Part shown: piece by piece, positions 26,143 to 64,000 of the stretch
How the letters are laid out: every line of letters begins with the position of its first letter
Position numbering within the stretch: position 1 is the first letter of the stretch
Assembly: GCF_006494815.1 (NCBI RefSeq)
Contig: NZ_CP041091.1
Span: forward strand, 1,577,001 to 1,641,000
DNA length: 64,000 nt
Direction: 5' to 3'
Source of the DNA: Nocardioides sambongensis
Lineage (GTDB): Bacteria > Actinomycetota > Actinomycetes > Propionibacteriales > Nocardioidaceae
The notes under the pieces: generated by a model
What the model was told of the DNA's origin: nothing
The model's input: the letters and a program-made list of their open reading frames with translations, nothing else
The model's database searches: none
Made by a program: the position numbers and the translations under genes

Positions 26143-27603
26143 TCAGGCGTCCTCGTTGGCCTTGTCCAGATAGATCGTCTTGAGCTGCTGGAAGGCGACG
26201 AGCCCCTCCGGACCGAGCTCACGGCCCATGCCGCTGGCCCGGATGCCGCCGAACGGGGAGAACGGGTCGTTGCTGTAGTGGTTGACCCCGATGGTGCCGC
26301 TGCGGATGCGGCGGGCGAACTGCTCGCCGCGGTCGGGGTCAGCGGTCCACACCGATCCTCCCAGTCCGTAGTCGGTGTCGTTGGCGATGGCGACGGCGTC
26401 GTCCTCGTCCTCGTAGGGGATCACAGCGAGGACGGGGCCGAATATCTCCTCCTGCGCGATCGTCGCCTTGCGGTCGACGTCTGCGAACACGGTCGGCTGC
26501 ACGAACCAGCCGCTGTCGCGATCCGCCGGGCGAGCGCCACCGACGACCAGGCGGCCACCGTCGGAGATCCCCTTCTCGATGTAGCCCTCCACGCGCTGAC
26601 GCTGCCGCTCGGAAACGAGGGGACCGACTTGGGTCGACTCGACCAGCGGATCGCCGACGACCAGCGAGCCCGCGAGCCCGGCAACGGTGTCGACGACCTC
26701 GTCGTACCTCGCCCTTGGAGCAAGTACGCGGGTCCCGAGCCAGCAGATCTGGCCGTTGTTCAGCAGTGTTGCTGCGAAGAACGACTCGATCGTCTCCGAC
26801 AGGTTGGCATCATCGAGGACGACGGCCGCGGACTTGCCTCCGAGCTCGAGAGTGACTGGCCGGAGGAGCCGACCACACGTGGAGGCGATCAATCGACCCG
26901 CAGCCGAGGACCCGGTGAAGGACACCTTGTCCACGCCGGGATGCTCGACGAGGTAGGCACCCACCTCGCGACCGGCGGGTACAACGTTCAGCACGCCCGG
27001 CGGAAGACCGGCCTCGGCGGCGGCCTCGGCCATCAGGAACGCGTCGAGCACGGTCTCGGGAGCCGGCTTGAGGACGACGGTGCAGCCAGCTGCGAGGGCC
27101 GGGGCCAGCTTCAGGAAGGTGATGGCCTGCGGGACGTTCCACGGGACGATCGCCGCGACGACGCCGATGGGTTCGCGCAGGACGACCGCCTGCTTGCCCA
27201 GCATTCCCTGCCGACGTTCCTCCTGCCCGGCTTCGACCAGACCTGCGTAGTAGCGCAGCAGCACCGCCGGGAATCCTGCCTCGAACTGCTGCGCCAACCA
27301 GATCGGCATTCCGTTCTGGATGGTGACGCGGCGTGCTGTCTCCTCGCCACGCGCCTCCAGGCAGACGGCGAAGCGCTCGAGCACCGCGGTGCGCCGCGCA
27401 GGGCTCCAGGTCGACCATCCGGTCGGGTCATCGTACGCGCGGCGCGCAGCCAGCACGGCGGCGTCGATGTCGGCCTCGGTGCCCTCCGGGACACTGCCGA
27501 TCACCTGCTCGGTGGTCGGCGAGACGACCTCGATCCGCTGTCCGGTCGCCGGCGCGGACCAAGAGCCGTCCAGGTAGAGCTGCTCGTAGTCGATGGTGGT
27601 CAT
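26143..27603 (-). CDS. NAD(P)-dependent aldehyde dehydrogenase
   Basis: A 486-residue ALDH superfamily enzyme oxidising an aldehyde to an acid. Catalytic Cys is in NNGQICW, the general-base Glu in LELGGKSA and cofactor-binding FTGSSAAG is visible. ATG 27603 has AGGA upstream. It is last in the operon P450-reductase-ferredoxin-alcohol dehydrogenase-ALDH and would complete oxidation of a P450-made alcohol to a carboxylate. Confidence 0.93.
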   Translation of the reverse strand: MTTIDYEQLYLDGSWSAPATGQRIEVVSPTTEQVIGSVPEGTEADIDAAVLAARRAYDDPTGWSTWSPARRTAVLERFAVCLEARGEETARRVTIQNGMPIWLAQQFEAGFPAVLLRYYAGLVEAGQEERRQGMLGKQAVVLREPIGVVAAIVPWNVPQAITFLKLAPALAAGCTVVLKPAPETVLDAFLMAEAAAEAGLPPGVLNVVPAGREVGAYLVEHPGVDKVSFTGSSAAGRLIASTCGRLLRPVTLELGGKSAAVVLDDANLSETIESFFAATLLNNGQICWLGTRVLAPRARYDEVVDTVAGLAGSLVVGDPLVESTQVGPLVSERQRQRVEGYIEKGISDGGRLVVGGARPADRDSGWFVQPTVFADVDRKATIAQEEIFGPVLAVIPYEDEDDAVAIANDTDYGLGGSVWTADPDRGEQFARRIRSGTIGVNHYSNDPFSPFGGIRASGMGRELGPEGLVAFQQLKTIYLDKANEDA

Positions 27604-27617
27604 GGAGTTCCTACCTC

Positions 27618-28721
27618 TCACTCGTGGACGAGGACGACCTTGACGGCCTCCCCACGTGCTTGCGCCTCGACGGCGTCGTTGATCTTGGCGAACGGCATGG
27701 TGGTGATCAGCCGGTCGAACGGGAATCGACCCGCCAGATGCAGTTGGACCAGTTCGGGCAGGAACGTGTCCGGGTCACTGTCCCCCTCGACGATTCCCAT
27801 GAACCGCAGCCCGCGTGCCTGCATCTCGATCAGGCCCACCGACAGCACCGCCTCAGGGTTGCTGGGGACGCCGACCATGCCGAGCGTGCCCAACTGGGCG
27901 AGCGATGCGAGCACCTCGGTCAGTACTGCGTCGATCGCGGTGGTGTCGAGCGCGTAGTCAACGCCCTCGGGCACGATGGCGCGCACCTGCTCGGAGACGG
28001 CGCCGTCGGCCGGGTCGATCACGTGGGTGGCGCCCAACTCGAGCGCGAGGTCCCTGCGCGACGCGATCGGGTCCACCACGATGATCGTGGCGAGTTCGCG
28101 GACGACCGCGCCGAGAACGCCGGAGAGCCCGACGGAGCCGCCGCCAGTCACCAGCAGTGACGAGCCTGCCCGGCACGACATCGACCGCATGACGGCGCCG
28201 GCGCCGGTCTGGATGCCGCAGCCCAGCGGGCCGACGATGGCGAGGTCGATGCCTTCGGCGACCTTGACGACGTTGCGTTCCCGGGCGATCGCGTGGGTTG
28301 CGAACGTCGACTGCCCGAAGAAGTAGCTGCCGTAGGCCGTCGCGCCTTCGTGCAGCGTGCTCGATCCGTCCGGCCGGCCGCCGCCGAAGTTGCGTGCCAT
28401 GAACTCTGCGCAGTACGACGGGGTGCCGCTGGTGCACTGCGTGCACGCGCCACAGCTGTTGAACGTGGCCGAGACGCGGTCTCCGACGCCGACCTTCGTG
28501 ACCGCGGAGCCCACGGCAACCACGGTGCCGCTGCCCTCGTGCCCTACGACGCCGGGGAACGGGAACGGCAGGTGTCCGTGCTGGACTGCCAGGTCGGTGT
28601 GACAGAGCCCGACCCCGGCGATCTCCACGACCACCTCATCGGGGGCCGGATCGTCGAGTGTCAGGTTCTGGATGACGAAGTCCTGCCCCAGACCCTCCAG
28701 GACTGCTGCGGTGATCTCCAT
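27618..28721 (-). CDS. Zinc-dependent alcohol dehydrogenase (aryl/terpenyl alcohol type)
   Basis: A 367-residue medium-chain dehydrogenase: catalytic zinc motifs GLCHTDL and GHEGSG, structural cysteines CGACTQCTSGTPSYC and the dinucleotide motif GGGSVGLSG. It is closest in pattern to benzyl, geraniol and similar unsaturated alcohol dehydrogenases. It sits between ferredoxin and aldehyde dehydrogenase, consistent with oxidising the primary alcohol formed by the P450. Substrate is inferred from context only. Confidence 0.9.
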   Translation of the reverse strand: MEITAAVLEGLGQDFVIQNLTLDDPAPDEVVVEIAGVGLCHTDLAVQHGHLPFPFPGVVGHEGSGTVVAVGSAVTKVGVGDRVSATFNSCGACTQCTSGTPSYCAEFMARNFGGGRPDGSSTLHEGATAYGSYFFGQSTFATHAIARERNVVKVAEGIDLAIVGPLGCGIQTGAGAVMRSMSCRAGSSLLVTGGGSVGLSGVLGAVVRELATIIVVDPIASRRDLALELGATHVIDPADGAVSEQVRAIVPEGVDYALDTTAIDAVLTEVLASLAQLGTLGMVGVPSNPEAVLSVGLIEMQARGLRFMGIVEGDSDPDTFLPELVQLHLAGRFPFDRLITTMPFAKINDAVEAQARGEAVKVVLVHE

Positions 28722-28748: not shown

Positions 28749-29069
28749 CTAGCCGTTGGTGGCCGGGACGACGACTCGGACGCCCGCACAGGCCTCCGAG
28801 ACGATCAGCTGGCAGGAAAGGCGCGAGCGGTCGCACGCACCCTCGAGGAACTCGACCAGGTCGGCTTCCTCGGTCATCGGCTCGTCGAACAGCCCGACCG
28901 CGGCGTCGTCGACGAAGACGTGGCAGGTCGCGCACGAACAGCCACCGCCGCACTCGGCAACGATCCCCGGCAGGTTGTTGCGGACGGATCCGTCCATGAC
29001 GGACTGACCGACGGGCACGTCGACCGTCTCCTCGCGACCGTCCGGCAGGACGTAGGTGATCTGAGGCAT
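28749..29069 (-). CDS. 2Fe-2S ferredoxin (adrenodoxin/putidaredoxin type)
   Basis: A 106-residue ferredoxin. Cluster cysteines follow the C-x5-C-x2-C pattern in CGGGCSCATC, with the fourth in RLSCQL; this is the vertebrate-type spacing used with bacterial P450s. It should carry electrons from the adjacent FAD reductase to the P450. Confidence 0.95.
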   Translation of the reverse strand: MPQITYVLPDGREETVDVPVGQSVMDGSVRNNLPGIVAECGGGCSCATCHVFVDDAAVGLFDEPMTEEADLVEFLEGACDRSRLSCQLIVSEACAGVRVVVPATNG

Positions 29070-29087: not shown

Positions 29088-30320
29088 TCAGGCAAACGCG
29101 AGTTCGCGCAGCGGGACGGCCGGATCTGCCCACCGCTCTGCGTCGACCAGGTGGCCGGATGCGAGCAGGCGTCGTCCCGCCATGAAGTCGGCGTTGGCGT
29201 TGGCGGTCTCGATGGCGACAGGTGTGCCGTCGCGATGGTGCAGCAGAGCGAACGACCCGGCCCTGGGGTCACCGCGAAGCGCCGTGTCGTACGGCGGGGC
29301 GAGGATCCCTGCGATCTTCAGCTTCAGGTCGAACTGGTCGGACCAGAACCACGGAACCTCCGGGGCTGGCGGAGGAGCCCCGCAGATGGTGGCCACGGCC
29401 TGTTTCGCCTGCTCAGTCGCGGAGGGGATGCTCTCCATCCGCATCGGATCCCCGCCGAGGCGGGGACGGACGGTGACGTCTCCGATTGCCAGCACCCCGT
29501 CCATCGACGTCCGCGCCGCATCGTCGACGACGACGCCCCCTCCGGCAGCACAGACAAGTCCCGCACGACGGCCGAGTTCGTCGCACGGCTGCGCACCGAC
29601 CCCGACGACCACGACGTCCGCTGCGACGTGGGTGTTGTCGGAGAGCAACAACCGCTGGGCCCTTCCCCGGGCGCCCTCGACTGCGACGACCTCGACTCCG
29701 GTGCGGACCACCGTGCCGCGGCGACCGTGGTGCTCGGCCAGCACCCGCGCCAGCGGCGGACTGGCAACCCGAGCCAGCAACCTCTCCTCCCGCTCGACCA
29801 CCGTCACCGGCAGCCCACGCGAACGAGCGACCGCGGCGACCTCAAGCCCGACGAACCCGCCACCGACGACGGCCATGGTCCTTCCCGCTGCCACCTCGTC
29901 GCGGAGCCGGTTCGCGTCACTCAGGGTGCGAACCGTGAGGACGGCGTCGAGATGGGCGCCAGGCGCGATCAGCGGACGGGGCCGAGCGCCGGTCGCCAGG
30001 ACGACGACGTCGTAGCGCAGCTCCCGCCCGCGGTCGGTGCGCACCACCCGTGCCACCGGATCGAGGTCCACCGCCGATTCCGTGAGAGCGAGGGTGATCC
30101 GCTGCTCGTCGTAGAAGGCTGCCTCGCGGAGCCAACGACTGGCGTCGGCTGCCGGGTCCGCGAACTTCTTCGACAGCGGTGGACGGTGGTACGGCGGGTC
30201 CGGCTCGGCGCCCAGCATGACGACGTCGCCGTCGTAGCCCGCCTGACGGAGCAGGCCCGCGAACGTGCCGCCGGCGGTGCCGGCTCCGACCACGACGACC
30301 CGCTGGGCGGTGTGGTTCAC
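29088..30320 (-). CDS. NAD(P)H ferredoxin reductase (putidaredoxin reductase type)
   Basis: A 410-residue FAD protein. Two dinucleotide motifs are seen: [17 protein letters not shown] near the N-terminus and [11 protein letters not shown] in the NAD domain. [12 protein letters not shown] is typical of putidaredoxin and rhodocoxin reductases. The GTG start overlaps the P450 stop by 4 bp. Confidence 0.95.
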
Positions 30321-31648
30321 CGGAGTTCCAGACGCATTGGCAGCTTCCGGAGGCCGCCGACGAAGTTGGTCTGGACGACCTTGCGCTCTCCGGTCACCTC
30401 AAGCGCCGCGATCCGGGGAAGGAGCTCCTCGAGCATGATCCGGAGCTCTTGCTTCGCCAGGTGCTGCCCGATGCACATGTGCGGCCCGTACCCGAAGGCG
30501 ATGTGACGGTTGGGCCTGCGGTCGAGGTGAAACTCATCCGGGGCGTCGAACACGTCGGGATCGCGGTTGGCCGACTGGTAGAGCAGCATCATCCGGTCCC
30601 CGGCCTTGATGGTCTGGCCCCGCATCTCGTAGTCCTCGAGTGCCTTGCGGGTGAACTGCTTGACGGGCGAGGCCCATCGCAGTCCCTCGTTGACCAGGTC
30701 CGGGATCAGCTCGGGCCTCCTCTGGACCAGTGCCAGCTGTTCGGGGTGCAGCGCGAGTGCTTCGAGGATGCTGGCCATCGTGCTCGAGGTCGTGTCGTGA
30801 CCGGCGGTGGCGATGGCGATGAACCAGCCGTAGGCGACCTCCTTCGGGAAATACTCACCGGTCTCCGGGCTCTTGGCCCGCGCGATGATCGTCGCCAGGT
30901 CGTCCTGGGGCTCCTTGCGGCGCGCCTCGACGAGTGCGTCGAAGTAGGCGTAGAAGTCCTGGATGGTCGCCGACCACTGCTGTGCGGCGCCCTCGGGGGT
31001 CAGCGGCTCGACGTCCACGCGCTGGGTGTCGGGGTCGGCCGTGCCGAAGAACTCCTGCGTCAGCGCCATCATCCTGGGCTCGTCCTCGGCGGGCACGCCG
31101 AAGAGCGTCATGATGACGTGGAGCGGGTAGGTCAGGCAGAAGTCCTTGACGGCGTCGAGGTCGTTGGGGCCGACGTGCAACTGGTGCGCGATCGACTCAC
31201 GCGCGAGGTCACGGATCTGGTCCTCCCACTTCTTCAGTGAGGCCGGCCGGAACCACTCCGCGGCGATGTCCTTGACCATGGTGTGCTCGGGCGGGTCGAG
31301 GTAGGTGAGGGTCTCGAGGATCCGCAGGCTGCCGCCGGTCAGCGACTGGGTGAAGGCGTCGCCCGCCTGGTTCTGGAGGATGGGGTTGTGGGACCCCGGC
31401 TCGTCGCCCCCGCCGCTGGTGAAGATCTGCGGCTGTCGCTCGACCTCCATGATGTCGGCGTGCTTGACCAGCAGCCAGACGGGGTCGTACCCCTCGACTG
31501 CGACCTGGGCGAGCGGGGCGTTCTCTCGCATCCAGCGGTAGGCCTCGAACAGGGGCTCGTCCTCGCGGTGCCCTTCGGGGAGCACGATGCGACGGGCGAT
31601 CTCTTGCGGCACCTCGACGGTCGAGGTGGGTGTGGAGGTGAGGGTCAC
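30317..31648 (-). CDS. Cytochrome P450 of a class I terpene/alicyclic-type operon
   Basis: A 443-residue P450. The I-helix AGHDTTSST, ExxR-type region NEGLRWASP and heme loop [11 protein letters not shown] are intact. GTG 31648 has GGGAGA upstream. It heads an operon with its own reductase, ferredoxin, alcohol and aldehyde dehydrogenases, the layout of the P450terp (CYP108) and linalool (CYP111) systems, which oxidise terpenoids. Substrate not proven; a methyl-group hydroxylation is the natural reading. Confidence 0.92.
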
Positions 31649-31751: not shown

Positions 31752-32813
31752 TCACCCCGTCCAGTGCTGGTGGTAGAGCGCGCCGGCATGCGCGCGGTTG
31801 TCGACCCCGAGCTTGCGGAGCAGGTTCTTGACGTGGGTCTTCGCCGTCCCCTCCGTGACGTAGAGGCGCTGCCCGATCTGCGCGTTGGTCATCCCGGCTG
31901 CCACCAGGGCGAGGACGTCCTCCTCCCGACGGGTGAGGGCTCGGCGCCATGACGGCTCGGGCGCCACGTCCGGCCTCAGGCGCCGTCGCACGACATCGGC
32001 CTCGTCGCCGAGGAGACCACTCATGGCGGCGGCTTGCTCGCCGATGCGCCGACGCAGCTCACCCAGCTCCTCGAGGACGGCGACGCGGTCGAGCGCGAGC
32101 GACACCCCCTCGGCGAACAAGTGGATCAGGTCTCGGTCGACCTCGTCGACGACATCGAGCTCGACGTTCTGGTCCGCGCTGACGAAGCCGACGACCTGCG
32201 CCCGACGGATCACGGGTGCGGCGACGTAGGAGTGGGAGTGCATCACGGCCTGGATGTCTTGGTGAACGCGTGGGTTGTCGAGTGCGTTGCGCACGAGCAT
32301 CGGTCGGCGATGGGTGATCATCTCGCCCTCCAACAGCCGGTGCAGGTCCCAGTACGGCGGCTGCCCGGCCTCCATGACCGCGCGCGCCTCCTCTGGGCCA
32401 GTCTCGGTGTGGAACGACACCGGGACCCATCGCGCCTGGTCGACCCAGGAGAACAGCACGCGCCTGAACCCGAGGGCGGCGACCTCGTCGGGCACCTGGC
32501 TGACCAGGTCGGCGGTGCTCTCGACCTGCTGGAGGTTGCGCAGTGCTCGCTGCAGTCGTTCGGTCACGTCGCGCCGCCGTACGACCTCCTCGGTGCGAAG
32601 ACGCAGCCGCGCGGCACGTAACTCGGTGATGACTTCAGTCGCTTCGGCGACTCGCTCGGGGTGCTGGTCACGCCACTGGCTCAACGAGGTGTCCGCGCTG
32701 TCGAGCAGGTCGTTGACCTGTGCCCGGGATCCCGCCATCGCGGACGTACCCAGCAGATCGCCTGCACGCTTCAGGACTTCGCAGGCTTCGTCACGGGACT
32801 GCTCGTCGGTCAT
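31752..32813 (-). CDS. GAF-LuxR transcriptional regulator
   Basis: About 353 residues. A helical N-terminus is followed by a GAF domain (about 130-250) and a C-terminal LuxR-type HTH (about 285-345: LTRREEDVLALVAAGMTNAQIGQRL, TVKNLLRKLGV-like helix). It lies 103 bp upstream of the P450 operon on the same strand and is its probable activator (inference). The ATG at 32813 is preferred over 32831. Confidence 0.88.
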   Translation of the reverse strand: MTDEQSRDEACEVLKRAGDLLGTSAMAGSRAQVNDLLDSADTSLSQWRDQHPERVAEATEVITELRAARLRLRTEEVVRRRDVTERLQRALRNLQQVESTADLVSQVPDEVAALGFRRVLFSWVDQARWVPVSFHTETGPEEARAVMEAGQPPYWDLHRLLEGEMITHRRPMLVRNALDNPRVHQDIQAVMHSHSYVAAPVIRRAQVVGFVSADQNVELDVVDEVDRDLIHLFAEGVSLALDRVAVLEELGELRRRIGEQAAAMSGLLGDEADVVRRRLRPDVAPEPSWRRALTRREEDVLALVAAGMTNAQIGQRLYVTEGTAKTHVKNLLRKLGVDNRAHAGALYHQHWTG

Positions 32814-32894
32814 TCCCCCACCTTCAACCACCGCCCTCGCGCCGTGAGGCGGAGGTCACATTTCGGTCATCCTAGTGGTCCGCCCGAGTGCCAT

Positions 32895-34073
32895 TCAGGC
32901 TCGTCGGAAGAGCGCAGCGAGCGCCTGGCCGCCACCGATGCACATCGTCACGATCCCGAACTCGAGGTCGCGGCGCACGAGGTCACGCGCCACCCGGAGC
33001 GAGAGGATGGCGCCGGTCGCGCCGACCGGGTGACCGAGAGCGATCGCTCCACCCCAGGGGTTGACGCGCGCCGGGTCGAGGCCGGCGTCCCGGATCACCG
33101 CAAACGCCTGGGAGGCGAACGCCTCGTTGAGTTCGATGGTGCCGATGTCTGTGGCTGCCGTCCCGGTTCGCTCGAACAGGGACCGCAGTGCGAGGACTGG
33201 CGCGTACCCCATCAGTTCGGGCTCCATGGCTGCGGTGGCGACGGCCACCAGTTCGACGAGCGGGTTGAGTCCACGTTCGGCGGCGGCCGCTTCGGTTGCC
33301 AGCACGACCGCGGCAGCGCCGTCGTTGATGCCGGACGCGTTGCCTGCCGTCACCGAGCCGCCTTGCTGGAAGGCGGGTCGCAGTCCGGCCAGTGTCTCCA
33401 AGGTGGTGCCCGGCTTCGGGTGCTCGTCCTCGGCGACGGTGACCGGGCGGCGGCCACCGATCTCGACGGGTGTGATCTCCTCCGCGAACACAGCCTTGGC
33501 TTCCGGACTCGCGGCCCGGCGCTGTGACTCCACCGCGAACTCGTCCTGCTCCACGCGGGAGACGCCGTACTTCTGCGCCACTCGTTCGGCCGTGACGCCC
33601 ATGTGGAAGCCGTGGAACGGGTCGGTCAGCATCATCACGGTGCCGTCGACGAGCGACCTGTCGCCGAGCTTGTATCCGTTGCGCGCCCCGAAGTCGTAGA
33701 ACGGCATCCGGGACATCGACTCGTCTCCACCCGCAACCGTGATGTCCAGGTCGTTCCAGCGCATCTCCATGGCAGCGGACCAGATGGCCTGGAGTCCGGA
33801 TCCACACAGCCTGTTCACCGTGTAGGCAGGAACGTTGACCGGCAGCCCCGCAGCAACCGCCACACGACGGGCGTTGTAGGCGTCGGGGCCGACCTGGCCG
33901 ATGCACCCCATGACCACTTCTCCGACGTCCGTGGCGGCGACCGCCGAGCGTTCGAGTGCTGCCGTGACTGCCGTCGCCCCGAGCTCGAAGCCCGGGACGT
34001 CGCGGAAGGCGCCCCCGAAGCTCCCCACGGGCGTGCGTGCGCCGTCGACCAGGACGATCCGCTGGCTGTTCAC
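32895..34073 (-). CDS. Acetyl-CoA acyltransferase (thiolase)
   Basis: A 392-residue thiolase with the acyl-accepting Cys in NRLCGSGLQAIW, His in GHPVGATG and second Cys in TMCIGGGQ. GTG 34073 follows GGAGGG and overlaps the stop of the small upstream gene by 4 bp. It performs the thiolytic step of beta-oxidation in this region. Confidence 0.93.
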   Translation of the reverse strand: MNSQRIVLVDGARTPVGSFGGAFRDVPGFELGATAVTAALERSAVAATDVGEVVMGCIGQVGPDAYNARRVAVAAGLPVNVPAYTVNRLCGSGLQAIWSAAMEMRWNDLDITVAGGDESMSRMPFYDFGARNGYKLGDRSLVDGTVMMLTDPFHGFHMGVTAERVAQKYGVSRVEQDEFAVESQRRAASPEAKAVFAEEITPVEIGGRRPVTVAEDEHPKPGTTLETLAGLRPAFQQGGSVTAGNASGINDGAAAVVLATEAAAAERGLNPLVELVAVATAAMEPELMGYAPVLALRSLFERTGTAATDIGTIELNEAFASQAFAVIRDAGLDPARVNPWGGAIALGHPVGATGAILSLRVARDLVRRDLEFGIVTMCIGGGQALAALFRRA

Positions 34074-34360
34074 CGCCCGCCCTCCTTCACCAGCAGGAGG
34101 CAGGCGGGACACATCGCGGCCTGCGTTCGGCCTCGGCGCAACGGGAAGGGCAGGTCCATCATGGTCCTCCAGGAGTAGGTCCACAGCCCGCAGGCCGTGT
34201 GCGTCGTGCCGGCCTCCTTGGCATGGGCCACGGACGTCGGCCAGAGCACGATCCCGTCCTCGGTCATCCGTTCCTCGGTCGCTGCGGCGGTGGCGTACCA
34301 GCGACGTGCGCGCCCGAGCCGTCGCCGCCCCGCCGTCACGGGCCGTTGAGTCATCGTCAT
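34070..34360 (-). CDS. Small Cys/His-containing protein, unknown
   Basis: A 96-residue basic protein, ATG at 34360 with AAGGGA upstream; its TGA overlaps the thiolase GTG. The C-terminal part has THTACGLWTYSW and MCPACLL, a His/Cys arrangement that could bind zinc. I do not recognise a family. Coupling to the thiolase suggests an accessory role in the same pathway. Earlier in-frame starts overlap the neighbouring hydratase and are less likely. Confidence 0.6.
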   Translation of the reverse strand: MTMTQRPVTAGRRRLGRARRWYATAAATEERMTEDGIVLWPTSVAHAKEAGTTHTACGLWTYSWRTMMDLPFPLRRGRTQAAMCPACLLLVKEGGR

Positions 34361-37099: not shown

Positions 37100-37121
37100 G
37101 CCGATCTCTCCCCACAACTAT

Positions 37122-37132
37122 TGGTCAGACCA
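37122..37132. promoter_or_regulatory. Operator-like palindrome TGGTCAGACCA
   Basis: A perfect 11-bp inverted repeat with one central base, 23 bp upstream of the LLM gene start. It fits the FadR/GntR-type consensus TNGTNNNACNA. The same sequence recurs at 52536 and in degenerate form before other operons here. Confidence 0.6.
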
Positions 37133-52535: not shown

Positions 52536-52546
52536 TGGTCTGACCA
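52536..52546. promoter_or_regulatory. Operator-like palindrome TGGTCTGACCA
   Basis: A perfect inverted repeat identical in its arms to the site at 37122-37132, upstream of the CoA transferase-hydratase operon. Confidence 0.6.
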
Positions 52547-52552
52547 TAACAT

Positions 52553-55889: not shown

Positions 55890-55908
55890 GTTTCCTCTTC
55901 TCGTGGGG

Positions 55909-55951
55909 TCCACAGTGCGGGCGCGCTCAGGGCGCCGCCCGCACCGTGGAC
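55909..55951 (-). terminator. Intercistronic hairpin between binding protein and livH
   Basis: A stem of about 15-16 bp with one mismatch (GTCCAC-A-GTGCGGGCG pairing CGCCCGCAC-C-GTGGAC), just after the repaired stop of the binding-protein gene. It would stabilise or partly terminate the message so that more binding protein than permease is made. Confidence 0.65.
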
Positions 55952-55954
55952 GAC

Positions 55955-57168
55955 TCAGAAGGAGCAGTCCGAGCTGGACTGGGGGTCGTGACGTCGGGCG
56001 TGGAGTTCGACAGCACGTCGAATGCCAGTCCGCCGTCGCCCTCGGCGACCTGTCCGAGGTAGGAATCGCGCAGGACCTGGTGATCCTCGGCCCGCACGGT
56101 GACCTCGCCGACGATGCTGTCGAGGCTCAGGTCAGCGATCGCCTCGGAGACGTCCGCGGGATCGGCCGACCCCGCCTCCTCGATGGCGGCGAACAGAGTC
56201 TGGGCGGCGAGGTAGTTGTCGGCCGGCACGTAGTACGGCGCTTCACTGTGATCCGCCGTGTAGGCCTCGACGAACTCCTGGTTCGACTCGTTGTCACCGG
56301 CCACGTCGTAGCCCACGTTGTTGTAATAACCCACGATGGTGTCGCCCAGGGTCTCGAAAAGCGGCTCCGAGACCATGTTGAACCCGAGGACGGTCTCGAG
56401 CTGCTTGTCGAGGTTGAACTGGTCGGCTTGCTGGACGAAGGCCACGCCGTCGGCGCCGTACTCGACGGCGAAGACGGCGTCTGCACCACTGCTCTTGATC
56501 TTAGTGATGTAGGAGCCGAAGTCAGTCGTGTTGAGCGGCGCGAACTGCTCGAGGACGATCTCTTTGCCGGCCGCCTCAGCCGCGTCGCGGAACTTCTCGG
56601 CGGCACTATGTCCGGTGGCGTAGTCGACCGCCTGGATCGCCCACTTCTCACCGGGCAGCTCGTCGAGGGAGTTGGCCAGGCCGTTGATGTCCATGCTGCT
56701 GCTCTGCACGACGTGCACCGCGTATGGCGAGCACTGCTCTCCAATGAGAGCGTCGTCCTTGCCGAGCGAGTTGAACGACATCGCGCCGAGGCCTTCGAGC
56801 TGTGCATTGAGCGCCGCATGCTCGGGCGATGTCATCACAGCGCCGATGTACTGCGCACCATCCTGGGTCACTGCCTCGCGAGCGACGCGAAGTGTCGTCG
56901 CAGGGTCGGCGTCGGTCGACTTCACGACCAGCTCCACCTCGCGGCCGTCGATGCCGCCGTCCTCATTGACAAGTCGGACGGCGGTCTCCCAGCCCTTGAC
57001 TGCATCCGTGCCGAACTGGGCCAGGGCGCCGCTGGTCGGCGGGATGAGCGCGACCTTGATCGTGCCGCCCTCACCCTCTCCCCCCGAGCTGTCACTGGCC
57101 GAGCCACAGGCGGCCATCGTTGTTGCCAAGGCGACGGCACTCGTGGCCGCCAGCAGTCGTCGCTTCAT
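55955..57168 (-). CDS. LivK-type ABC substrate-binding lipoprotein, 3'-frameshifted
   Basis: About 404 residues. A lipoprotein signal ends MAACGS, then a type I periplasmic-binding fold (KVALIPPTSGALAQFGTDAVKGWETAV, NEDGGIDGREVELVV). As written the frame runs to 55927 through the hairpin region. Adding one base to the G5 run 55981-55985 gives an ending SSSDCSF and a stop at 55955, ahead of the hairpin, which I prefer. ATG 57168. Ligand: probably a carboxylate catabolised here. Confidence 0.85.
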
Positions 57169-57228
57169 GCGAATGATCCCTCGGGTGTCGGGAACACCGA
57201 CCATCGGTGTGTCTCACGTCACTGATTA

Positions 57229-57334: not shown

Positions 57335-58294
57335 TCAGCCCGGTGCGACGTTCTCCGGGACGCGCTCCTCGACGACAGCGCGCCGCTCTGAGCTGATGAT
57401 GAGCACCACCGCGCCGACCACCGCACCGCCGCCGACGAGCACCCCGGCCCCGACGGGCTCCGCGAGCACCAACCAGCCCAGCAAGACGGCCACGACCGGG
57501 TTGACGTAGGCGTGGGTCGCGGTCAGTGAGATCGGCACGTTGGCCAGCAGCCATGCGAAGGCGAGGAACGCGACGATCGAGCACGCCACCACCAGCCACG
57601 CAAGCGCGAGCCAGCCTCGGGTCGAGTAGTCCATGCTGAAGGTCTCGCCCGTCGACAGGGCGAGGGTCGTCGACGTTCCGGCAGCAACCAGCTGCTGGTA
57701 GGCAGCCACCACCACGATGTCGCTCGGGATGGCCATCCGCCCCTGGAGGAAGGATCCGACCGTCCAGCTGAGGCTGGCGAGCAGGCAGCAGAAGGCGGCC
57801 AGCAGCGGCACCGCCTCGCCGGTCCGCTGACCGAGCCCCACCAGAGCGACCAGGCCAGCAAAGCCGACGGCCACCCCGCACAGGGTCAACCTCGGCGGAT
57901 GGTCGCCGGTGGCGAGCCTGATGAGGACCGCCCACGCAGGCACGGTGGCGACGATGAGTGCAGCAACGCCCGAGGGCAGGCCGCCGACCTGGGCGAGCGC
58001 CTGGAACCCGTTGCCGAAGCCGAGGAGCAGGACGCCGGTGACCAGCAGCCCGAGGCCCTCGGCGCGGGTCACCCGCAAGGCGGCCGGGCCGCGCATCGCG
58101 ACGGCGAGGCCGGCGAGCGCGAGCCCTGCGACGACATAGCGCTGGGCCATGGCCTGGAACGGGTCCACCTCGTTGACCACCAGTCGGATCGCGAGGTACA
58201 CCGAGCCCCAGAGCAGCCAGACGGCGCCGAGGCAGAACACGAGGGTGGCACGCCCACCGCTGCGCGAGGGCGCGAGGGAGTGCCGGCCGCTCAC
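57335..58294 (-). CDS. EamA/DMT family transporter
   Basis: A 319-residue membrane protein with about ten helices in two EamA repeats (AVWLLWGSVYLAIRL, SLSWTVGSFLQGRM, ATHAYVNPVVAVLLGWLVLAEP). Drug/metabolite exporters of this type move small metabolites. GTG start overlaps the hydratase stop by 4 bp, so it is last in the BadHIK-like operon and may export a pathway intermediate (inference). Confidence 0.9.
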   Translation of the reverse strand: MSGRHSLAPSRSGGRATLVFCLGAVWLLWGSVYLAIRLVVNEVDPFQAMAQRYVVAGLALAGLAVAMRGPAALRVTRAEGLGLLVTGVLLLGFGNGFQALAQVGGLPSGVAALIVATVPAWAVLIRLATGDHPPRLTLCGVAVGFAGLVALVGLGQRTGEAVPLLAAFCCLLASLSWTVGSFLQGRMAIPSDIVVVAAYQQLVAAGTSTTLALSTGETFSMDYSTRGWLALAWLVVACSIVAFLAFAWLLANVPISLTATHAYVNPVVAVLLGWLVLAEPVGAGVLVGGGAVVGAVVLIISSERRAVVEERVPENVAPG

Positions 58295-59067
58295 GCGAAG
58301 TTCGGCGGGCGCTTCGCCACGAAGGCCGCGATCCCCTCGGCCGCCTCCCCCGTCTCGAAGAGGCCCTGCTCCTGCTTGGCCTCGAACGCGAAGCCCTCCT
58401 CGAGCGGCATCTCGAACGCAGCGTCGACGGTGCGTACGACGGCCAACTGGGCCGGGAGCGAGGAGCCGGCGAGGTCAGCCGCCAGGTCGAGGGCGGCCTT
58501 GAGGGCGTCGCCGTCCGTGAGTCGGTCGACGAGGCCGATGCGGAGCGCTTCTTCGGGCTCGACCTGGCGGGCGGTCAGCATGATGTCGAGCGCGCGGCCG
58601 CGTCCCACCAACTGCGGGAGCCGCTGGGTGCCACCCGCGCCAGGGATCAGACCGAGCTTCACCTCTGGCAGGCCGAGCCGGGCGCGGGGACCGGCCACCC
58701 GCATCGTGCAGGCCATCGCGAGTTCGAGTCCGCCGCCGAGCGCCACGCCGTCGACCGCAGCGATCGAGATCCACCCCGCCGCTGCGAGCCGGTCGTTGAC
58801 GGCGCGCATCTTGTCGCCGTAGGCGAGGAAGGAGCCAGCGTCGATAGTCGACATGTGCTTGATGTCGGCTCCAGCTGCGAAGAAGCCTTCTCGGCCCGAC
58901 GTGAGGACCATGACCTTCACGTCGCCGGCCGTCTCGGCGGCGTCGATGGCGGCATGCAGGCCGTCCAGCAGGGGGATGCCGAGGGCGTTCGCGGGCGGGC
59001 GGTCCATCGTCACCACGACGACGCCGGGCGATTCGGTGGTCCAGGTGACGACAGAGGTCTCAGACAT
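58291..59067 (-). CDS. Enoyl-CoA hydratase (BadK-like position)
   Basis: A 258-residue crotonase protein with both catalytic glutamates in place (GGGLELAMAC and LPEVKLGLIPGAGGTQRL) and FFAAGADIKHM. A true hydratase by these residues. In the operon with BadI- and BadH-like genes it fills the BadK role, hydrating a cyclohexene-carboxyl-CoA (inference). Confidence 0.88.
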   Translation of the reverse strand: MSETSVVTWTTESPGVVVVTMDRPPANALGIPLLDGLHAAIDAAETAGDVKVMVLTSGREGFFAAGADIKHMSTIDAGSFLAYGDKMRAVNDRLAAAGWISIAAVDGVALGGGLELAMACTMRVAGPRARLGLPEVKLGLIPGAGGTQRLPQLVGRGRALDIMLTARQVEPEEALRIGLVDRLTDGDALKAALDLAADLAGSSLPAQLAVVRTVDAAFEMPLEEGFAFEAKQEQGLFETGEAAEGIAAFVAKRPPNFA

Positions 59068-59110: not shown

Positions 59111-59959
59111 TCAGGGGCGCCGAGGGAAGCGGGTGAAGTCGGGAGTTCGACGGGCCTTGAAGGACTCCCGCCCCTCCTGGGCCTCCTCGGTGCCGTAGAA
59201 GAGGAGGTTCGCATCGTGGGCCAGCTGCTGGATCCCCGCGTAGCCGTCCTCGTGGGCATGGAAGCTCAGCTTCGACATTCGCAGGGCGCGGGGAGACAGC
59301 TCGAGCATCTCCCGGCACCACCGGACCGTCTCTGCTTCCAGGTCGGCCAGCGGCACGACCGTGTTGACCAGTCCCATTGCGAGCGCCTCGTGGGCGTCGT
59401 ACTGACGGCACAGGAACCAGATCTCCTTGGCCTTCTTCGGGCCCACGAGGTCGGACAGGATGCTCGATCCGTATCCGCCGTCGAAGGAGCCGACCTTGGG
59501 CCCGACCTGTCCGAAGACCGCGTTGTCGGCGGCGATCGTCAGGTCGCACACCAGGTGCAGCACGTGGCCACCCCCGATCGCCCACCCCGCCACCATCGCG
59601 ACGATCGGTTTGGGGCAACGGCGCATCGCGACGTGCAGGTCGGTGACGTGGAAGCGGCCGGTCGCGGCGTCGTCGAGCTTGTAGCCGGAGTCCCCGCGGA
59701 CGCGCTGGTCACCGCCGGAGCAGAAGGCGCGGTCGCCGGCCCCGGTCAGGATGATCGCGCCCACGGACTCGTCCTCACGCGCTGCCATCAGGGCACGGTC
59801 GACGTCGACCAGGGTCTGTGGCCGGAAGGCGTTGTGCACCTCGGGCCGGTTGATCGTGATCTTGGCGATGCCGTCGGGGCTCGTCTCATAGACGATGTCG
59901 TCGTAGCTGCCGCTCGCGGTCCAGTCGACGGCCGCGGCGGGAGTGCTCGTGAGGGCCAC
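59111..59959 (-). CDS. BadI/MenB-like ring-opening hydrolase
   Basis: A 282-residue crotonase protein: [67 protein letters not shown] and [13 protein letters not shown] are MenB-like almost throughout. Automatic naming would give DHNA-CoA synthase. No other menaquinone gene is near, while the BadH-like SDR lies 1 bp upstream, so cleavage of a 2-oxocycloalkane-carboxyl-CoA is the better reading. GTG start. Confidence 0.82.
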
Positions 59960-59960: not shown

Positions 59961-60722
59961 TCAGGCCATCGTGAGGCCGCCGCTGACCGACAGCGTCTGG
60001 CCAGTGACGAACCCGGCGCCGTCGGAGGCGAAGAACGACACGGCGGGGCCGACGTCCTCGGGGGTGCCCAGGCGCTTCATCGGGACCGCGCTCGTCATCC
60101 CCGCGATCACCTTCTCGGCGTCTCCGCCGCCCGCGCCGTCCGCGAACTTGCGCAGGGCCGGCGTGTCGGTCGGGCCGGGGCACACGGTGTTGGCCGTGAC
60201 GCCCTTGCGAGCGACCTCACGGGCCAGCGTCTTGGTGAACGCGATGATGCCGCCCTTGGCGCCTGAGTAGACCGCCTCCATGGAGGAGCCGACACGACCG
60301 GCGTCGGAGCCGATGTTGATGACGCGGCCGAAACCTCGTTCCATCATGCCGGGAACGACGGCGTGGATGACGCGGAGCGCACCCTTGTAGTTGATGTCGA
60401 GGATCTTGTCCCAGAAGTCCTCGGTGGTCTTCACGAACGGCATGAAGTCGTCCCACCCGGCGTTGTTGACGACGACCTCGATCGGGCCGAGCTCGTTCTC
60501 GATCGCAGTGACGGCCGCCTTGACCGACTCGGTCGAGGTCACGTCGATCTGGACAGCGATGGCCTCGCCGCCCGCGGCGCTGATCTCCTTGGCGGTCTCC
60601 TCCGCCACCGAGAGGTTGAGGTCGGCGACGGCGACGCGGAATCCGTCGCGGCCGAGGGTGGTGGCGATGCCCTTGCCGATGCCCTGGGCACCGCCGGTGA
60701 CGAGTGCGACGCGGTTGCTCAT
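59961..60722 (-). CDS. BadH-like 2-hydroxycyclohexanecarboxyl-CoA dehydrogenase (SDR)
   Basis: A 253-residue [57 protein letters not shown] and [14 protein letters not shown]. The blocks NNAGWD, SDA-RVGSS-EAVY and LSVSGGLTM are shared with Rhodopseudomonas BadH, as I recall that sequence. It would oxidise a 2-hydroxycycloalkane-carboxyl-CoA to the ketone, the substrate for BadI. A ribosome binding site AAGGAGAG precedes the ATG. Confidence 0.85.
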
Positions 60723-60749: not shown

Positions 60750-61712
60750 TCAGACGCTCGGGGACCAGATGACGGGCCCGGCGACGATCGAGTGGCTGGT
60801 CAGCTTGCGTCCGAGCGTGCTCTGGGCGTCCCTGGCCGCTTCGATGAGGACGTAGAGGTCGAGGCCGGTGTCGACGCCCATCTCGTGGAACATGGACACG
60901 AGGTCCTCGGTCGCGATGTTGCCGGTGGAACCTGCTGGGACCGGGCATCCACCGAGCTCACCGAAGCTGGACTCGAAGCTGCGGCAACCGGCCTCGAGGG
61001 CGGCGTACGCGTTGGCCAGGCCTTGGCCCCGGGTGTTGTGGAAGTGGGCAGTGATCTCGACCTCGGGGAGGCGCGCGACGGCGGCGGCGAAGAACCGCGA
61101 GGCGTACGACGGATTGCACATGCCGGTCGTGTCGCCGAAGCCGATCTCGGTGGCCCCGGACTCGGCGAACTGCTCGGCGAGGTCGAGCACCCGGTCCATC
61201 GGTACGGCGCCCTCGAACGGACAGCCGAAGGACGTCGCGACAACGGCGCAGTAGGTGAGTCCTTCGTCGACGATGCGCTTGCCCATCTGACGCACGTCGT
61301 CCATGGTCTCCTGGACGGTGCGGTTGATGTTGCGCTTGTTGTGGGTCTCGCTGGCGCTGACGAAGAGGGCGACCTCCTCGAAGAGGTCGCGATGGGTGAG
61401 GGCGTTGTCGAGGCCCCGGCTGTTGGGGACCAGGACCATGCGTGCGACGTCGTCGGGGACGTCGATCCCTTGGAGCACGGCCACGCCGTCGGCGAGTTGC
61501 GGGATGACGTCAGGACGCACGAAGCTGGCGACCTCGATCCGCTTCAGGCCCGCGCGGCCCAGAGCGTTGATGAGGCGGATCTTGTCGTCGGTGGCGATGG
61601 TCTCGGGCTCGTTCTGGAAGCCGTCGCGTGGCCCGACTTCACGGATGTGGACGGTGCGTGCCTCGCCCTCCGAGCTGTTCGGGAACGCCGCGTTGGTCGT
61701 GGGGTGGTTCAT
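60750..61712 (-). CDS. HMG-CoA lyase family protein
   Basis: A 320-residue TIM-barrel lyase. REVGPRDGFQNE, SFGCPFEG, GFGDTTGMCNP, HFHNTRGQGLANA and the catalytic loop GGCPVPAGSTGNIATED are family signatures. It cleaves 3-hydroxy-3-methylglutaryl-CoA or a longer 3-branched analogue. Within a ring-degradation operon a 3-branched dioyl-CoA is plausible. Confidence 0.93.
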   Translation of the reverse strand: MNHPTTNAAFPNSSEGEARTVHIREVGPRDGFQNEPETIATDDKIRLINALGRAGLKRIEVASFVRPDVIPQLADGVAVLQGIDVPDDVARMVLVPNSRGLDNALTHRDLFEEVALFVSASETHNKRNINRTVQETMDDVRQMGKRIVDEGLTYCAVVATSFGCPFEGAVPMDRVLDLAEQFAESGATEIGFGDTTGMCNPSYASRFFAAAVARLPEVEITAHFHNTRGQGLANAYAALEAGCRSFESSFGELGGCPVPAGSTGNIATEDLVSMFHEMGVDTGLDLYVLIEAARDAQSTLGRKLTSHSIVAGPVIWSPSV

Positions 61713-62956
61713 GGGGTCTCCTGCTCTGCGATGCTTCGTTGGAGGTGCTCACGGTGTTCGGGGGCCGCCACCTCGATGAGGCGCAGGGCACGTTCGGCCA
61801 CCGTGCAGCCGGTCAGCATGGCGACGCCGTGCTCGGTGACGACGGCGTCGACGTCGACGCGCGCGGTCGTCACGACGCCGCTGGCGAGCGTCGGAACGAT
61901 GGTGGAGTGGCACCTCTCCCCCGTTCCAACCGTCGATCGGAGCGCGATGATCGACCGGGCACCGGTCAGCGAGGCGGCACGACTGAAGTCGACCTGTCCG
62001 CCGACCGCGCCGATGTGGACGCCGCGGGCGAGTTCGGCGCCGACCTGGCCGAGCAGGTCGACCTCGATGGCGGAGTTGATCGAGACGAGTGACCCGAGGC
62101 GAGACAGAACCGCTGGGGCGTGGGTGTAGCTGGCCGGTCGGAACTCGACGGGCTGGTCTGCGATGCGCTGGTAGCCCTCGGTGCTGCACAGCGCGGCGCC
62201 CGTGACGGCGATTCCAGGATCGATCTCCTTGTGGGCGCCGGTGATGACGCCCTTCTCCACCAGGGTCAGCACCCCGTCGGTGAGCATGCCGCTGTGGAAG
62301 CCCAGGTCGGTGTGGCCGGCCAGCGCGTCGAGTACGGCGGCCGGGAGTGAGCCGACTCCGATCTGGATCGTCGACCTGTCGCGCACGATGCTGGCCACGT
62401 TGGCCGCGATCGCCCGGTCGACGGCGTCGGCGGGCCTGGAGGGAGCTTCGCGCAGGGGTCGGTCGGTCTCCACCACGGCGGCGAAGGTCGAGATCGGGAG
62501 CTGCGGGCCGCCGACCGTTCGGGGCATCTGGTGGTTGATCTCGGCGATGAGGGTGCGGGTGTGGCGCAGTGCGTCGGCGACGTACTCCACGCCCGTGCCG
62601 AGGGAGACCAGACCGTCCGGGCCCGGCGCAGAGACCTGGACCAGACCCAGGTCGTTGGGCAGTTGGCCCGTGGCGAACATCCGCGGGATCGCGGAGTAGT
62701 GGCACGGGACGACGTCGAGCCGTCCGTGTCGGCTGAGGGAGCGGAGCTGGCCGAGTCCGCCGTAGGAGAGGACGGTCAGCTTCTCGGGGAGGTCGCCTGC
62801 GAGGCGCTCGTTCCAGGTGAGTCCGGAGAATGCCCGGATCGGGCCGACCCGGTCCACGGCATCGAGGACCTGGTTGACGAGGGGCTCCGGCTCGGCGCTG
62901 CCCTGTCCCCACCACACGCCGTCTCCTGGATCCAGGAAGTCGGCCACGTCGAACAT
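61709..62956 (-). CDS. Acetyl-CoA hydrolase/4-hydroxybutyrate-type CoA transferase
   Basis: A 415-residue family I CoA transferase. GVGSLPAAVLDAL, DLGFHSGMLTDGVL and SINSAIEVDLLGQV, with the likely covalent Glu, are family features. ATG 62956 is chosen; its stop overlaps the lyase start by 4 bp. It could exchange CoA between the incoming acid and acetyl-CoA or succinyl-CoA. Confidence 0.9.
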   Translation of the reverse strand: MFDVADFLDPGDGVWWGQGSAEPEPLVNQVLDAVDRVGPIRAFSGLTWNERLAGDLPEKLTVLSYGGLGQLRSLSRHGRLDVVPCHYSAIPRMFATGQLPNDLGLVQVSAPGPDGLVSLGTGVEYVADALRHTRTLIAEINHQMPRTVGGPQLPISTFAAVVETDRPLREAPSRPADAVDRAIAANVASIVRDRSTIQIGVGSLPAAVLDALAGHTDLGFHSGMLTDGVLTLVEKGVITGAHKEIDPGIAVTGAALCSTEGYQRIADQPVEFRPASYTHAPAVLSRLGSLVSINSAIEVDLLGQVGAELARGVHIGAVGGQVDFSRAASLTGARSIIALRSTVGTGERCHSTIVPTLASGVVTTARVDVDAVVTEHGVAMLTGCTVAERALRLIEVAAPEHREHLQRSIAEQETP

Positions 62957-62963
62957 GGCGGCC

Positions 62964-64000
62964 TCACACCCGCTGGACCAGGGTCGCGGTGCCCAGCCCG
63001 CCACCGCAGCACATGGTCACCAGACCGATCTCGACGTCGCGGCGCTCCATCTCGGCGAGCAGGGTCGCGAACAGTCGGGAGCCGGAGGCTCCGACCGGGT
63101 GGCCGAGTGCGATGGCGCCGCCGTTGACGTTGACGCGGTCCATGTCCGGCTTCAGTTCGCGCTCCCAGGCCAGCGCCACCGAGCTGAACGCCTCGTTGAC
63201 CTCGAACAGATCGATGTCGTCGATGGCCATCCCGTTGCGCTCGAGCAGCTTGCGGGTGGCCGGGATCGGGCCGGTCAGCATGATCAAGGGATCGACGCCA
63301 ACGGTGGTCTGGTCGAGGACTCGCGCCCGCTTCGTGAGGTCGTGGCGCTCGACAGCCTCACTTGAGGCGAGCAGCACTCCGGCGGCCCCGTCCGTCAGCG
63401 GCGAGGACGAGCCGGCAGTGACGACGCCGGTGTCCGGGCGGAAGATGGTCTTCAGCTCTGCAAGGCTCTCGAGGCTCGTTCCGGGGCGGACGCTCTGGTC
63501 GCTGGTGCGTACGGCACCGTCGAGCTCCATGGCGATGATCTCGCGGTCGAACCGTCCCGCCTCGATGGCAGCCGCGGCCAGCGTGTGGGAGCGGACGGCG
63601 AAGTCGTCCATCTCGTGTCGACTGATGCCCCACTGCTCCGCGATGCGTTCGGCGCTCTCCCCCATCGTCGGGAAGTCGTAGAGCTCCTTGAGTTCGGCGG
63701 GCCACGCGGCGCCGTACAGCTCCTCGATCTTGACCACGGCGTCCATCGGGACGTGGCCCATGTTCTCCACGCCGCCGGCGAGGACGAGGTCGTGGGTGCC
63801 GGAGGCGATCAGCGCCGCGGCCATCTCGACGGCTGTCTGTGCGGAGCCGCACCGTCGGTCGAGTACGGTGGCGGGGACCTCGGCTGGGTAGCCGGCCTGG
63901 AGCCAGGCGTTGCGGGCGACGTTGCGAGACTGCTCGCCGAACGGTGCGGTGCAGCCGACGACGAGGTCCTCGACGTCGCCCGGCGCGATCCCGGTCGCGT
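62964..64000 (-). CDS. Acetyl-CoA acyltransferase (thiolase), N-terminus off window
   Basis: The frame enters from the right edge and runs 345 codons. The nucleophilic Cys is in VLDRRCGSAQTAVEM, His in GHPVGASGSRL and second Cys in TMCCGGGLGTATL. The first methionine at 63824 is internal, not the start. It begins the visible part of the operon with CoA transferase, lyase and BadHIK-like genes. Confidence 0.93.
   Translation of the reverse strand, partial: ATGIAPGDVEDLVVGCTAPFGEQSRNVARNAWLQAGYPAEVPATVLDRRCGSAQTAVEMAAALIASGTHDLVLAGGVENMGHVPMDAVVKIEELYGAAWPAELKELYDFPTMGESAERIAEQWGISRHEMDDFAVRSHTLAAAAIEAGRFDREIIAMELDGAVRTSDQSVRPGTSLESLAELKTIFRPDTGVVTAGSSSPLTDGAAGVLLASSEAVERHDLTKRARVLDQTTVGVDPLIMLTGPIPATRKLLERNGMAIDDIDLFEVNEAFSSVALAWERELKPDMDRVNVNGGAIALGHPVGASGSRLFATLLAEMERRDVEIGLVTMCCGGGLGTATLVQRV

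Follow-up and report, generated by a model that had tools for sequence, protein, structure and literature searches.

A gene island of Nocardioides sambongensis with a CYP108-type P450 set and ring-opening genes as a candidate for the aerobic breakdown of p-menthane monoterpenes

The stretch of 64,000 nucleotides analysed here (the window) covers positions 1577001-1641000 of the 4.43-Mb single-contig genome of Nocardioides sambongensis. It carries one gene island that runs from about 26 to 73 kb, past the window end, and holds a CYP108-type cytochrome P450 set together with hydratase, BadI-like and BadH-like genes. From this gene content we infer, with a probability of about 0.64, that the island serves to degrade, aerobically, a methylcyclohexene with a para substituent; the likeliest substrate would be a p-menthane monoterpene, for example limonene or alpha-terpineol. 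Coordinates above 64000 carry the window numbering into the adjoining genome stretch, and genes are called by their first coordinate.

Among plant volatiles, limonene and related compounds are abundant. In a partial literature search, gene-level accounts of the opening of the perillyl-coenzyme A (CoA) ring were found for Castellaniella and for methanogenic Syntrophobacteraceae, and no study of perillate ring opening in actinobacteria was found. The available part of PMC4109377 cites work on the aerobic biochemistry of Pseudomonas and Geobacillus. An aerobic island supplies enzymes to test, including homologues of 3-hydroxy-3-methylglutaryl-CoA (HMG-CoA) lyase and of MenB outside their usual pathways.

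The P450 unit

Gene families were assigned by Pfam and NCBIfam profile scans of the window proteins. The first unit of the island contains the following genes.

26143-27621, minus strand: aldehyde dehydrogenase, candidate for aldehyde to acid (Pfam Aldedh, 524 bits)
27618-28721, minus strand: zinc alcohol dehydrogenase, candidate for perillyl-type alcohol to aldehyde (Pfam ADH_N/ADH_zinc_N)
28749-29069, minus strand: [2Fe-2S] ferredoxin (Pfam Fer2)
29088-30320, minus strand: FAD ferredoxin reductase (Pyr_redox_2 and Reductase_C)
30317-31648, minus strand: CYP108-type cytochrome P450, candidate ring-methyl hydroxylase (identity to P450tol and P450terp)
31752-32831, minus strand: GAF-LuxR regulator (Pfam GAF and GerE)

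The P450 has the AGHDTT motif and one further motif, and is 70% identical to P450tol, the nearest solved P450. P450s are named into a family at more than 40% identity to one of its members, and the protein showed 46% identity over 428 columns to P450terp, which we take to be CYP108A1. In the part of the review PMC11279926 at hand, CYP108N12 and CYP108N14 hydroxylate limonene, giving perillyl alcohol, and p-cymene, and N14 also hydroxylates terpineols at C7. This agrees with an earlier note on the same DNA, which had proposed the oxidation of a ring methyl as the first step.

The alcohol dehydrogenase reached 209 bits with the model of the NDMA-dependent subfamily, under the cut-off of 440. In most of the relatives that carry the aldehyde dehydrogenase it lies near CYP108, and a GAF-LuxR-like gene (39%) adjoins CYP108 in Kribbella and Amycolatopsis. 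No ring-hydroxylating dioxygenase domain was found among the 30 proteins of 26-58 kb that were scanned with Pfam.

The ring-opening operon

At the other end of the island, the hydratase, MenB/BadI-like and BadH-like genes are consecutive and the run continues on the same strand. With a ligase gene that lies apart, the genes are listed here.

37164-38864, minus strand: acyl-CoA ligase, AliA-like, candidate for acid activation (profile scan)
58291-59067, minus strand: enoyl-CoA hydratase ECH_D, candidate for the BadK role (profile scan)
59111-59959, minus strand: MenB-type crotonase BADI1, inside the catabolic operon (MenB models and tree)
59961-60722, minus strand: BadH-type 2-hydroxyacyl-CoA dehydrogenase BADH, a short-chain dehydrogenase/reductase (SDR) (BadH model and tree)
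60750-61712, minus strand: HMG-CoA-lyase-like C-C lyase (family PRK05692, 325.4 bits, above the cut-off of 246)
61709-63004, minus strand: acyl-CoA:carboxylate CoA-transferase (AcetylCoA_hyd_C, 138 bits; 12 orthologues at 59-81%)
62964-64136, minus strand, beyond the window end at 64000: 3-ketoacyl-CoA thiolase of 390 residues (profile scan)
67320-68147, divergent from the operon: GntR-FCD regulator that bounds the operon's continuation

An SDR gene and two acyl-CoA dehydrogenase genes (64138-67242) complete the run. The genes named in the earlier note, namely the P450 set at 26.1-31.6 kb, the ligases, the CaiB-type transferase, an acyl-CoA dehydrogenase and the trio at 58-61 kb, were all recovered by Pfam and NCBIfam. 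Absent from it were the lyase-like, CoA-transferase and thiolase genes, the continuation of the operon, and a second crotonase at 44543-45337 on the plus strand.

ECH_D has counterparts at 61-83% identity in 11 mapped regions and at 54% in Prauserella. The 59961 SDR reached 316.6 bits with the BadH model TIGR03206, which is under the cut-off of 431.2, yet this was the top score among the listed models (FabG, 223 bits). In an SDR tree it grouped (100/98) with eight of nine SDRs that adjoin BadI-type genes, seven of the eight lying beside a BadI above its cut-off, and stood apart from the FabG-like SDR of its own operon. The BadH-like assignment of the earlier note was thus borne out, and a grouping with FabG was not seen.

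The catalytic motifs of the HMG-CoA lyase family, PRDG, HFH and GGCP..GN, were intact in 13 of 13 close copies of the lyase (the window, two congeners and ten named genomes). The genome has a second HMG-CoA-lyase-type gene, 38% identical to this one. The CoA-transferase and thiolase genes, which come next, each overlap a neighbour. A truncation or frameshift of the thiolase was ruled out, since the gene continues past the window end to 64136.

Which crotonase opens the ring

Two crotonases come into question, the operon's 59111 (BADI1) and a gene that lies apart from it.

44543-45337, plus strand: BadI-side crotonase BADI2 (BadI/MenB models and tree)

The 59111 product scored 442.4 and 387.5 bits with the MenB models PRK07396 and TIGR01929 (cut-offs 380 and 342.7), and 285 bits with the BadI model TIGR03210, under its cut-off of 467.6. 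The 44543 product reached 317.5 bits with TIGR03210 versus 333.1 and 303.9 with the same two MenB models, under all cut-offs. Their nearest counterparts were found in Nocardioides sp. WS12 (94% identity, 59111) and N. nitrophenolicus (96%, 44543).

A first crotonase tree, which contained long rows and two hydratases as outgroups, placed 59111 with MenB and left BadI, BADI2 and the MenB side without order among themselves. The tree was rebuilt with 48 rows, after four rows had been dropped (the two hydratase outgroups, L153 and L154) and two MenB sequences added. Here one branch (100/99) separated MenB and 59111 from BadI and 44543. The 59111 protein and its orthologues fell together with E. 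coli MenB and another protein (99/92), whereas 44543 was sister (99/96) to a group termed BADI2b. The identification of 59111 as BadI is ruled out by the BadI cut-off and its place in the MenB clade. The earlier note had taken this protein for the BadI-like ring-opener and had named two groupings that would speak against its proposal, that of the SDR with FabG and that of this protein with true MenB; the second is what the tree gave.

E. coli MenB has R91, S161, D163 and Y258 as active-site residues. Equivalents of R91, G156, S161, D163, W184 and Y258 are present in 59111. The G, S and D at positions 156, 161 and 163 are kept in 44543 as well, which also has K89 and R91; in the nine BadI rows R91 is missing and Y258 present. 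Elsewhere in the genome lie a MenB of the actinobacterial type, at 3.06 Mb (391 bits), and, at 3.96 Mb, menD.

Among 12 genomes with a close copy of the operon, a 44543 orthologue (76-90%) was found in nine, in eight of them on the operon's contig. A 59111 orthologue (70-86%) was found in five, four times inside the operon between BADH and ECH_D, as also in two congeners. The 44543 gene is hence the one more often kept with the operon. Its product is the best candidate for the hydrolytic ring-opening enzyme, and it may act perhaps together with the MenB-type 59111. The MenB label, which most named database records of the 59111 orthologues bear, may mislead.

A separate BADI2b-clade gene lies beside an SDR and an acyl-CoA dehydrogenase gene in five of the 12 operon genomes (G060, G064, G065, G066 and G069). 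Across the six BADI2b loci that were read, SDR, CoA ligase and acyl-CoA dehydrogenase genes adjoin it in four, SDR and dehydrogenase genes in one, and a CoA ligase and a luciferase-like gene only in one. These loci resemble the chcpca cluster for cyclohexanecarboxylate, as far as it is described in the available part of PMC5906575, so that several of the organisms appear to possess, besides the island, a route for plain cyclohexanecarboxylate.

Proposed pathway

The order of steps that we infer would begin with hydroxylation of the ring methyl by the CYP108 with its ferredoxin and reductase. The alcohol and aldehyde dehydrogenases would then lead to a ring carboxylic acid of the perillate type, of which the 37164 ligase would make the CoA ester. 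With the cyclohexanecarboxylate-CoA ligase model this enzyme scored 404 bits (cut-off 792) and with the medium-chain ligase model 424 bits (cut-off 736), under both. The 58291 hydratase would add water, the BadH-type SDR would make the 2-oxo ester, and the BadI-side crotonase 44543, possibly aided by the MenB-type 59111, would hydrolyse the ring to a 5-substituted pimelyl-CoA.

One round of beta-oxidation would yield 3-substituted glutaryl-CoA. Ordinary beta-oxidation stalls at this compound because the next hydroxyl falls on the carbon that bears the substituent. Leucine breakdown meets the same stall and solves it by HMG-CoA lyase, which releases a beta-keto acid that requires a CoA-transferase and a thiolase. 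Dehydrogenation and hydration would accordingly give a tertiary alcohol here, which the HMG-CoA-lyase-like enzyme would split into acetyl-CoA and a free beta-keto acid. The CoA-transferase would re-activate this acid, and the thiolase would release acetyl-CoA and methacrylyl- or isobutyryl-CoA. The lyase, CoA-transferase and thiolase would make best sense with a para substituent on the ring. The route drawn in the earlier note, from a methyl-substituted ring over the acid and the CoA ester to ring opening, is supported in part; of the two kinds of substrate it had allowed, a p-menthane terpenoid or a cycloalkane, these three genes favour a para-substituted ring over a plain cycloalkane.

A further idea, which we put forward tentatively and with considerable doubt, is that the MenB-type 59111 was recruited in Actinobacteria as a hydrolase that reverses the Dieckmann chemistry by which menaquinone is made. 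It would open a substituted 2-oxocyclohexanecarboxyl-CoA beside the BadI-side enzyme, and the branched glutaryl-CoA would be finished, as in leucine and ketone-body metabolism, by the lyase, a CoA-transferase that rescues the beta-keto acid, and the thiolase.

Conservation and linkage of the two halves

The contigs of named genomes were scanned with the CoA-transferase, which gave at least 80 loci. Twelve of these, including five metagenome-assembled genomes (MAGs), were at 59-81% identity, and the next was at 44% or less among the matches listed. The order acyl-CoA dehydrogenase, SDR, thiolase and CoA-transferase (ACAD2-SDR_B-THL2-CoAT) was present at all 12 close loci. So was a BADH orthologue (61-92%), which in 11 lies directly downstream with or without the lyase gene between. 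The lyase gene was found at nine of the 12, and in Prauserella it is about 13 kb away on the other strand. No lyase match was found at the 35 lower-identity CoA-transferase loci that were examined (L026-L060).

CYP108 at 65-79% identity was found in eight of the 12 operon genomes, in five on the operon contig at 5.6-17.5 kb from the CoA-transferase and in three on another contig. In a sample of 395 other genomes of the phylum, with the four best candidates per genome scored, there was neither a close CYP108 (E 1e-150) nor a close CoA-transferase (E 1e-120). Among 58 relatives, own genome included, three had a close CoA-transferase and two of these had CYP108 (E 1e-100), which was found in none of the other 55.

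With variations, the island is repeated in Nocardioides, Kribbella, Amycolatopsis, Frankia, Gordonia, Pseudonocardia and Mycolicibacterium. The Frankia operon is followed on its own strand, after only two hydratase genes, by the genes for the P450, reductase, ferredoxin, alcohol dehydrogenase and aldehyde dehydrogenase. In Kribbella, operon and P450 set are separated by a luciferase-like gene, a GAF-LuxR gene and, on the opposite strand, a thioesterase-like gene. Congener G033 nearly matches the window in gene order: CYP108 lies at 411.7 kb and the operon at 451-460 kb, and the genes of the P450 set are rearranged. Because the P450 set and the operon are both rare and lie close together, their neighbourhood is unlikely to be due to chance, with the caveat that genomes which are large and catabolic might, as a class, raise the co-occurrence. 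The gap of about 27 kb between the halves, which the earlier note had called its weakest point, thus shrinks in relatives, and the halves recur together.

Some irregularities were seen in these genomes. The CYP108 of Kribbella (G059:C10:275670-276985) matches in two overlapping pieces, probably by a frameshift in the gene or the assembly, and the CoA-transferase match of congener G033 (C10:454723-456000) contains one in-frame TGA. Besides the ring-opening operon, Candidatus Frankia californiensis (G062) carries three CYP108-like genes at 54-78%, which is striking if the organism is, as we presume, a plant symbiont.

Shared palindromes

At 10 of 14 loci the GntR gene adjoins the first dehydrogenase gene, and nine of the ten gaps contain a GGTCNNACC site in nearly identical context. 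A screen for exact half-site palindromes had given a best motif in two of ten regions; the operator emerged from a side-by-side reading of the regions. With a matrix that excluded the window and congener G033, the window operon site scored 34.2 versus 14.3 for the best of 10 shuffles. The next-best scores in the window, 16.8 and 15.2, were barely above that shuffle. Copies of the shared palindrome precede the operon, BADI2 and ACAD2, and others lie at the CaiB unit and the 36146 unit.

37122-37132, no strand: exact TGGTCNGACCA palindrome just upstream of 36146-37117 (pattern search)
44484-44494, no strand: palindrome with one mismatch, 59 bp upstream of 44543, in the BADI2 promoter region (pattern search)
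52536-52546, no strand: exact TGGTCNGACCA palindrome overlapping the listed CaiB start (pattern search)

With at most one mismatch, TGGTCNGACCA lies no more than 100 bp upstream of the gene in five of 11 regions for the 44543 orthologue and in eight of 15 for the ACAD2 orthologue, the window counted. Because the palindrome recurs upstream of both, a common regulator is suggested for the 44.5-kb and 58-67 kb units. Genome-wide, exact TGGTCNGACCA occurred at nine places versus 12 for the reversed control, which is not above chance; three of the nine are in the island, including one within the reductase gene. The one-mismatch pattern was weakly enriched in the window (six found versus 3.2 expected, with 10 of 100 shuffles as high). 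The exact operator-like palindrome in the reductase gene, at 29335-29345, is probably a coding coincidence because similar ones recur inside the reductase genes of relatives.

Weighing of the substrate and of alternative explanations

Several observations weigh against the p-menthane reading. CYP108N enzymes also accept the aromatics p-cymene and p-xylene, according to the accessible part of PMC11279926, so that the substrate cannot be read from the P450 by itself. CYP108 is missing in four of the 12 operon genomes, two of which are MAGs, and in congener G008, and therefore the operon core can persist in its absence. Reading of stretches from Gordonia and a Frankiales MAG turned up no lyase gene. 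At E. coli MenB position 258 the 44543 protein has no Tyr; Gly stands there, and Ser in some orthologues. Long-branch warnings came with each tree, in the 48-row tree chiefly for the actinobacterial MenB branch. The P450 unit of the window has no upstream palindrome, and in 11 CYP108-bearing regions one lies within 250 bp in two; the regulatory tie of this unit to the operon is weak. LrcC, the cleaving enzyme of the anaerobic lrc route, is assigned to the HMG-CoA synthase superfamily and not to the lyase family in the part of PMC12583861 at hand, so that the parallel to lrc is one of role only.

The core might instead be a general pathway for alicyclic (naphthenic) acids, for instance cyclohexanecarboxylate from outside, with the P450 set as an occasional add-on. 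N. halotolerans and congener G008 do hold most of the island without CYP108, and the ABC importer described below adjoins the operon in G033 and G008. We regard this as unlikely, however, since a separate BADI2b gene with SDR and acyl-CoA dehydrogenase genes, like chcpca in the available part of PMC5906575, is present in five of 12 genomes and the lyase, CoA-transferase and thiolase would be needless for a plain ring. The P450 set might also serve p-cymene or toluene-like aromatics and merely neighbour the operon. P450tol is the nearest solved relative, and p-cymene breakdown in R. globerulus is started by CYP108N12 (excerpts of PMC11889516 and PMC11279926). That dioxygenase domains were not found among the 30 scanned proteins of 26-58 kb, and that CYP108 and the operon recur together though both are rare, makes such a role very improbable.

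For the 59111 protein, its MenB scores, its clade and its complete set of MenB residues would fit a second 1,4-dihydroxy-2-naphthoyl-CoA synthase for menaquinone, which opens no ring. This explanation is distinctly improbable: the genome has the MenB at 3.06 Mb and menD at 3.96 Mb, and in four of 12 named loci and in two congeners the 59111 orthologue is flanked by BADH and ECH_D. The p-menthane reading remains the preferred one.

Other genes of the island

Between the two halves lie the following genes.

32895-34184, minus strand: thiolase, BktB-like (profile scan)
34371-35150, minus strand: enoyl-CoA hydratase ECH_A (Pfam ECH_1; counterparts 62-80% identical in eight mapped genomes)
35166-36149, minus strand: zinc-type quinone/enoyl reductase-like protein (profile scan)
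36146-37117, minus strand: F420-type luciferase-like oxidoreductase (profile scan)
38985-40016, plus strand: F420-type luciferase-like oxidoreductase (profile scan)
40013-40774, plus strand: SDR (profile scan)
40868-41260, minus strand: MaoC-like hydratase (profile scan)
41251-43665, minus strand: second acyl-CoA ligase, frame of 804 residues (profile scan)
45348-46685, plus strand: acyl-CoA dehydrogenase, adjoins BADI2 (profile scan)
47532-48560, minus strand: Rv3169-family protein (DUF7064; 204.6 bits, above the cut-off of 150)
48557-49618, minus strand: APH-type protein, kept in the island among relatives (profile scan)
49623-51385, minus strand: two tandem enoyl-CoA hydratases, start positions approximate (profile scan)
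51267-52547, minus strand: CaiB-type (family III) CoA-transferase (profile scan)
52602-57204, minus strand: branched-chain-type ATP-binding cassette (ABC) importer with two ATPases, two permeases and a binding protein (profile scan)

The two luciferase-like oxidoreductases and the zinc-type reductase make an F420-dependent reduction within the pathway possible. The frame of the second ligase extends at the C-terminus by about 250 residues that match no Pfam family; pieces that correspond to the frame are separate in congener G008, and one lies beside the MaoC gene in N. halotolerans. In several relatives the Rv3169-family and APH-type genes (47532-49618) accompany two hydratase genes in the island. 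The importer is also present in congeners G033 and G008 and, partly, in N. halotolerans. The sole tRNA found in the window, tRNA-Arg (gcg) at 6803-6879, lies 19 kb ahead of the island. A gene set for a steroid-type ring pathway was not noticed among the scanned proteins, in which no search was aimed at steroid genes.

Comparison with known systems

The P450 resembles the CYP108 enzymes P450terp, P450tol and CYP108N12/N14 to the degree given above. In the sources at hand these are described singly or with their redox partners, whereas here the P450 lies in an island with ring-opening genes. The hydration, oxidation and hydrolysis of a 2-oxocyclohexanecarboxyl-CoA ring would be shared with bad/ali of R. 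palustris and Aromatoleum and with chcpca of Rhodococcus aetherivorans BCP1, as described in parts of PMC9795900 and PMC5906575. There, however, an unsubstituted ring leads to pimelyl-CoA, and no HMG-CoA-lyase-like gene is among the chcpca genes listed in the available part of PMC5906575. BADI2 is only sister to the group with chcpca-like gene neighbours.

In the mrc system of Castellaniella defragrans, perillate is converted to perillyl-CoA, followed by a hydratase and by BadH-like and BadI-like enzymes (part of PMC4109377). According to the same excerpt, limonene is activated there by an oxygen-independent dehydrogenase, whereas here a P450 would act. The mrc hydrolase is of the BadI type, 88% identical to Azoarcus BadI, whereas the candidates here are an actinobacterial BadI-side and a MenB-type protein; the lyase, transferase and thiolase follow in this island.

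The lrc operon of methanogenic Syntrophobacteraceae belongs to an anaerobe and begins with fumarate addition. The same cleavage is drawn for limonene in the accessible part of the 2025 paper (PMC12583861), and a CoA-transferase and thiolases are in the operon. The roles of its hydrolase, hydratase, dehydrogenase, C-C cleaving enzyme, CoA-transferase and thiolase could all be filled by genes at 58-67 kb and by 44543, but by description the cleaving enzyme belongs to the HMG-CoA synthase superfamily there and to the HMG-CoA lyase family here. Its product is drawn there directly as a CoA ester, whereas here a free beta-keto acid would be re-activated by the transferase. In conclusion, the comparison of genes suggests that the island is an actinobacterial variant of the mrc and lrc routes.

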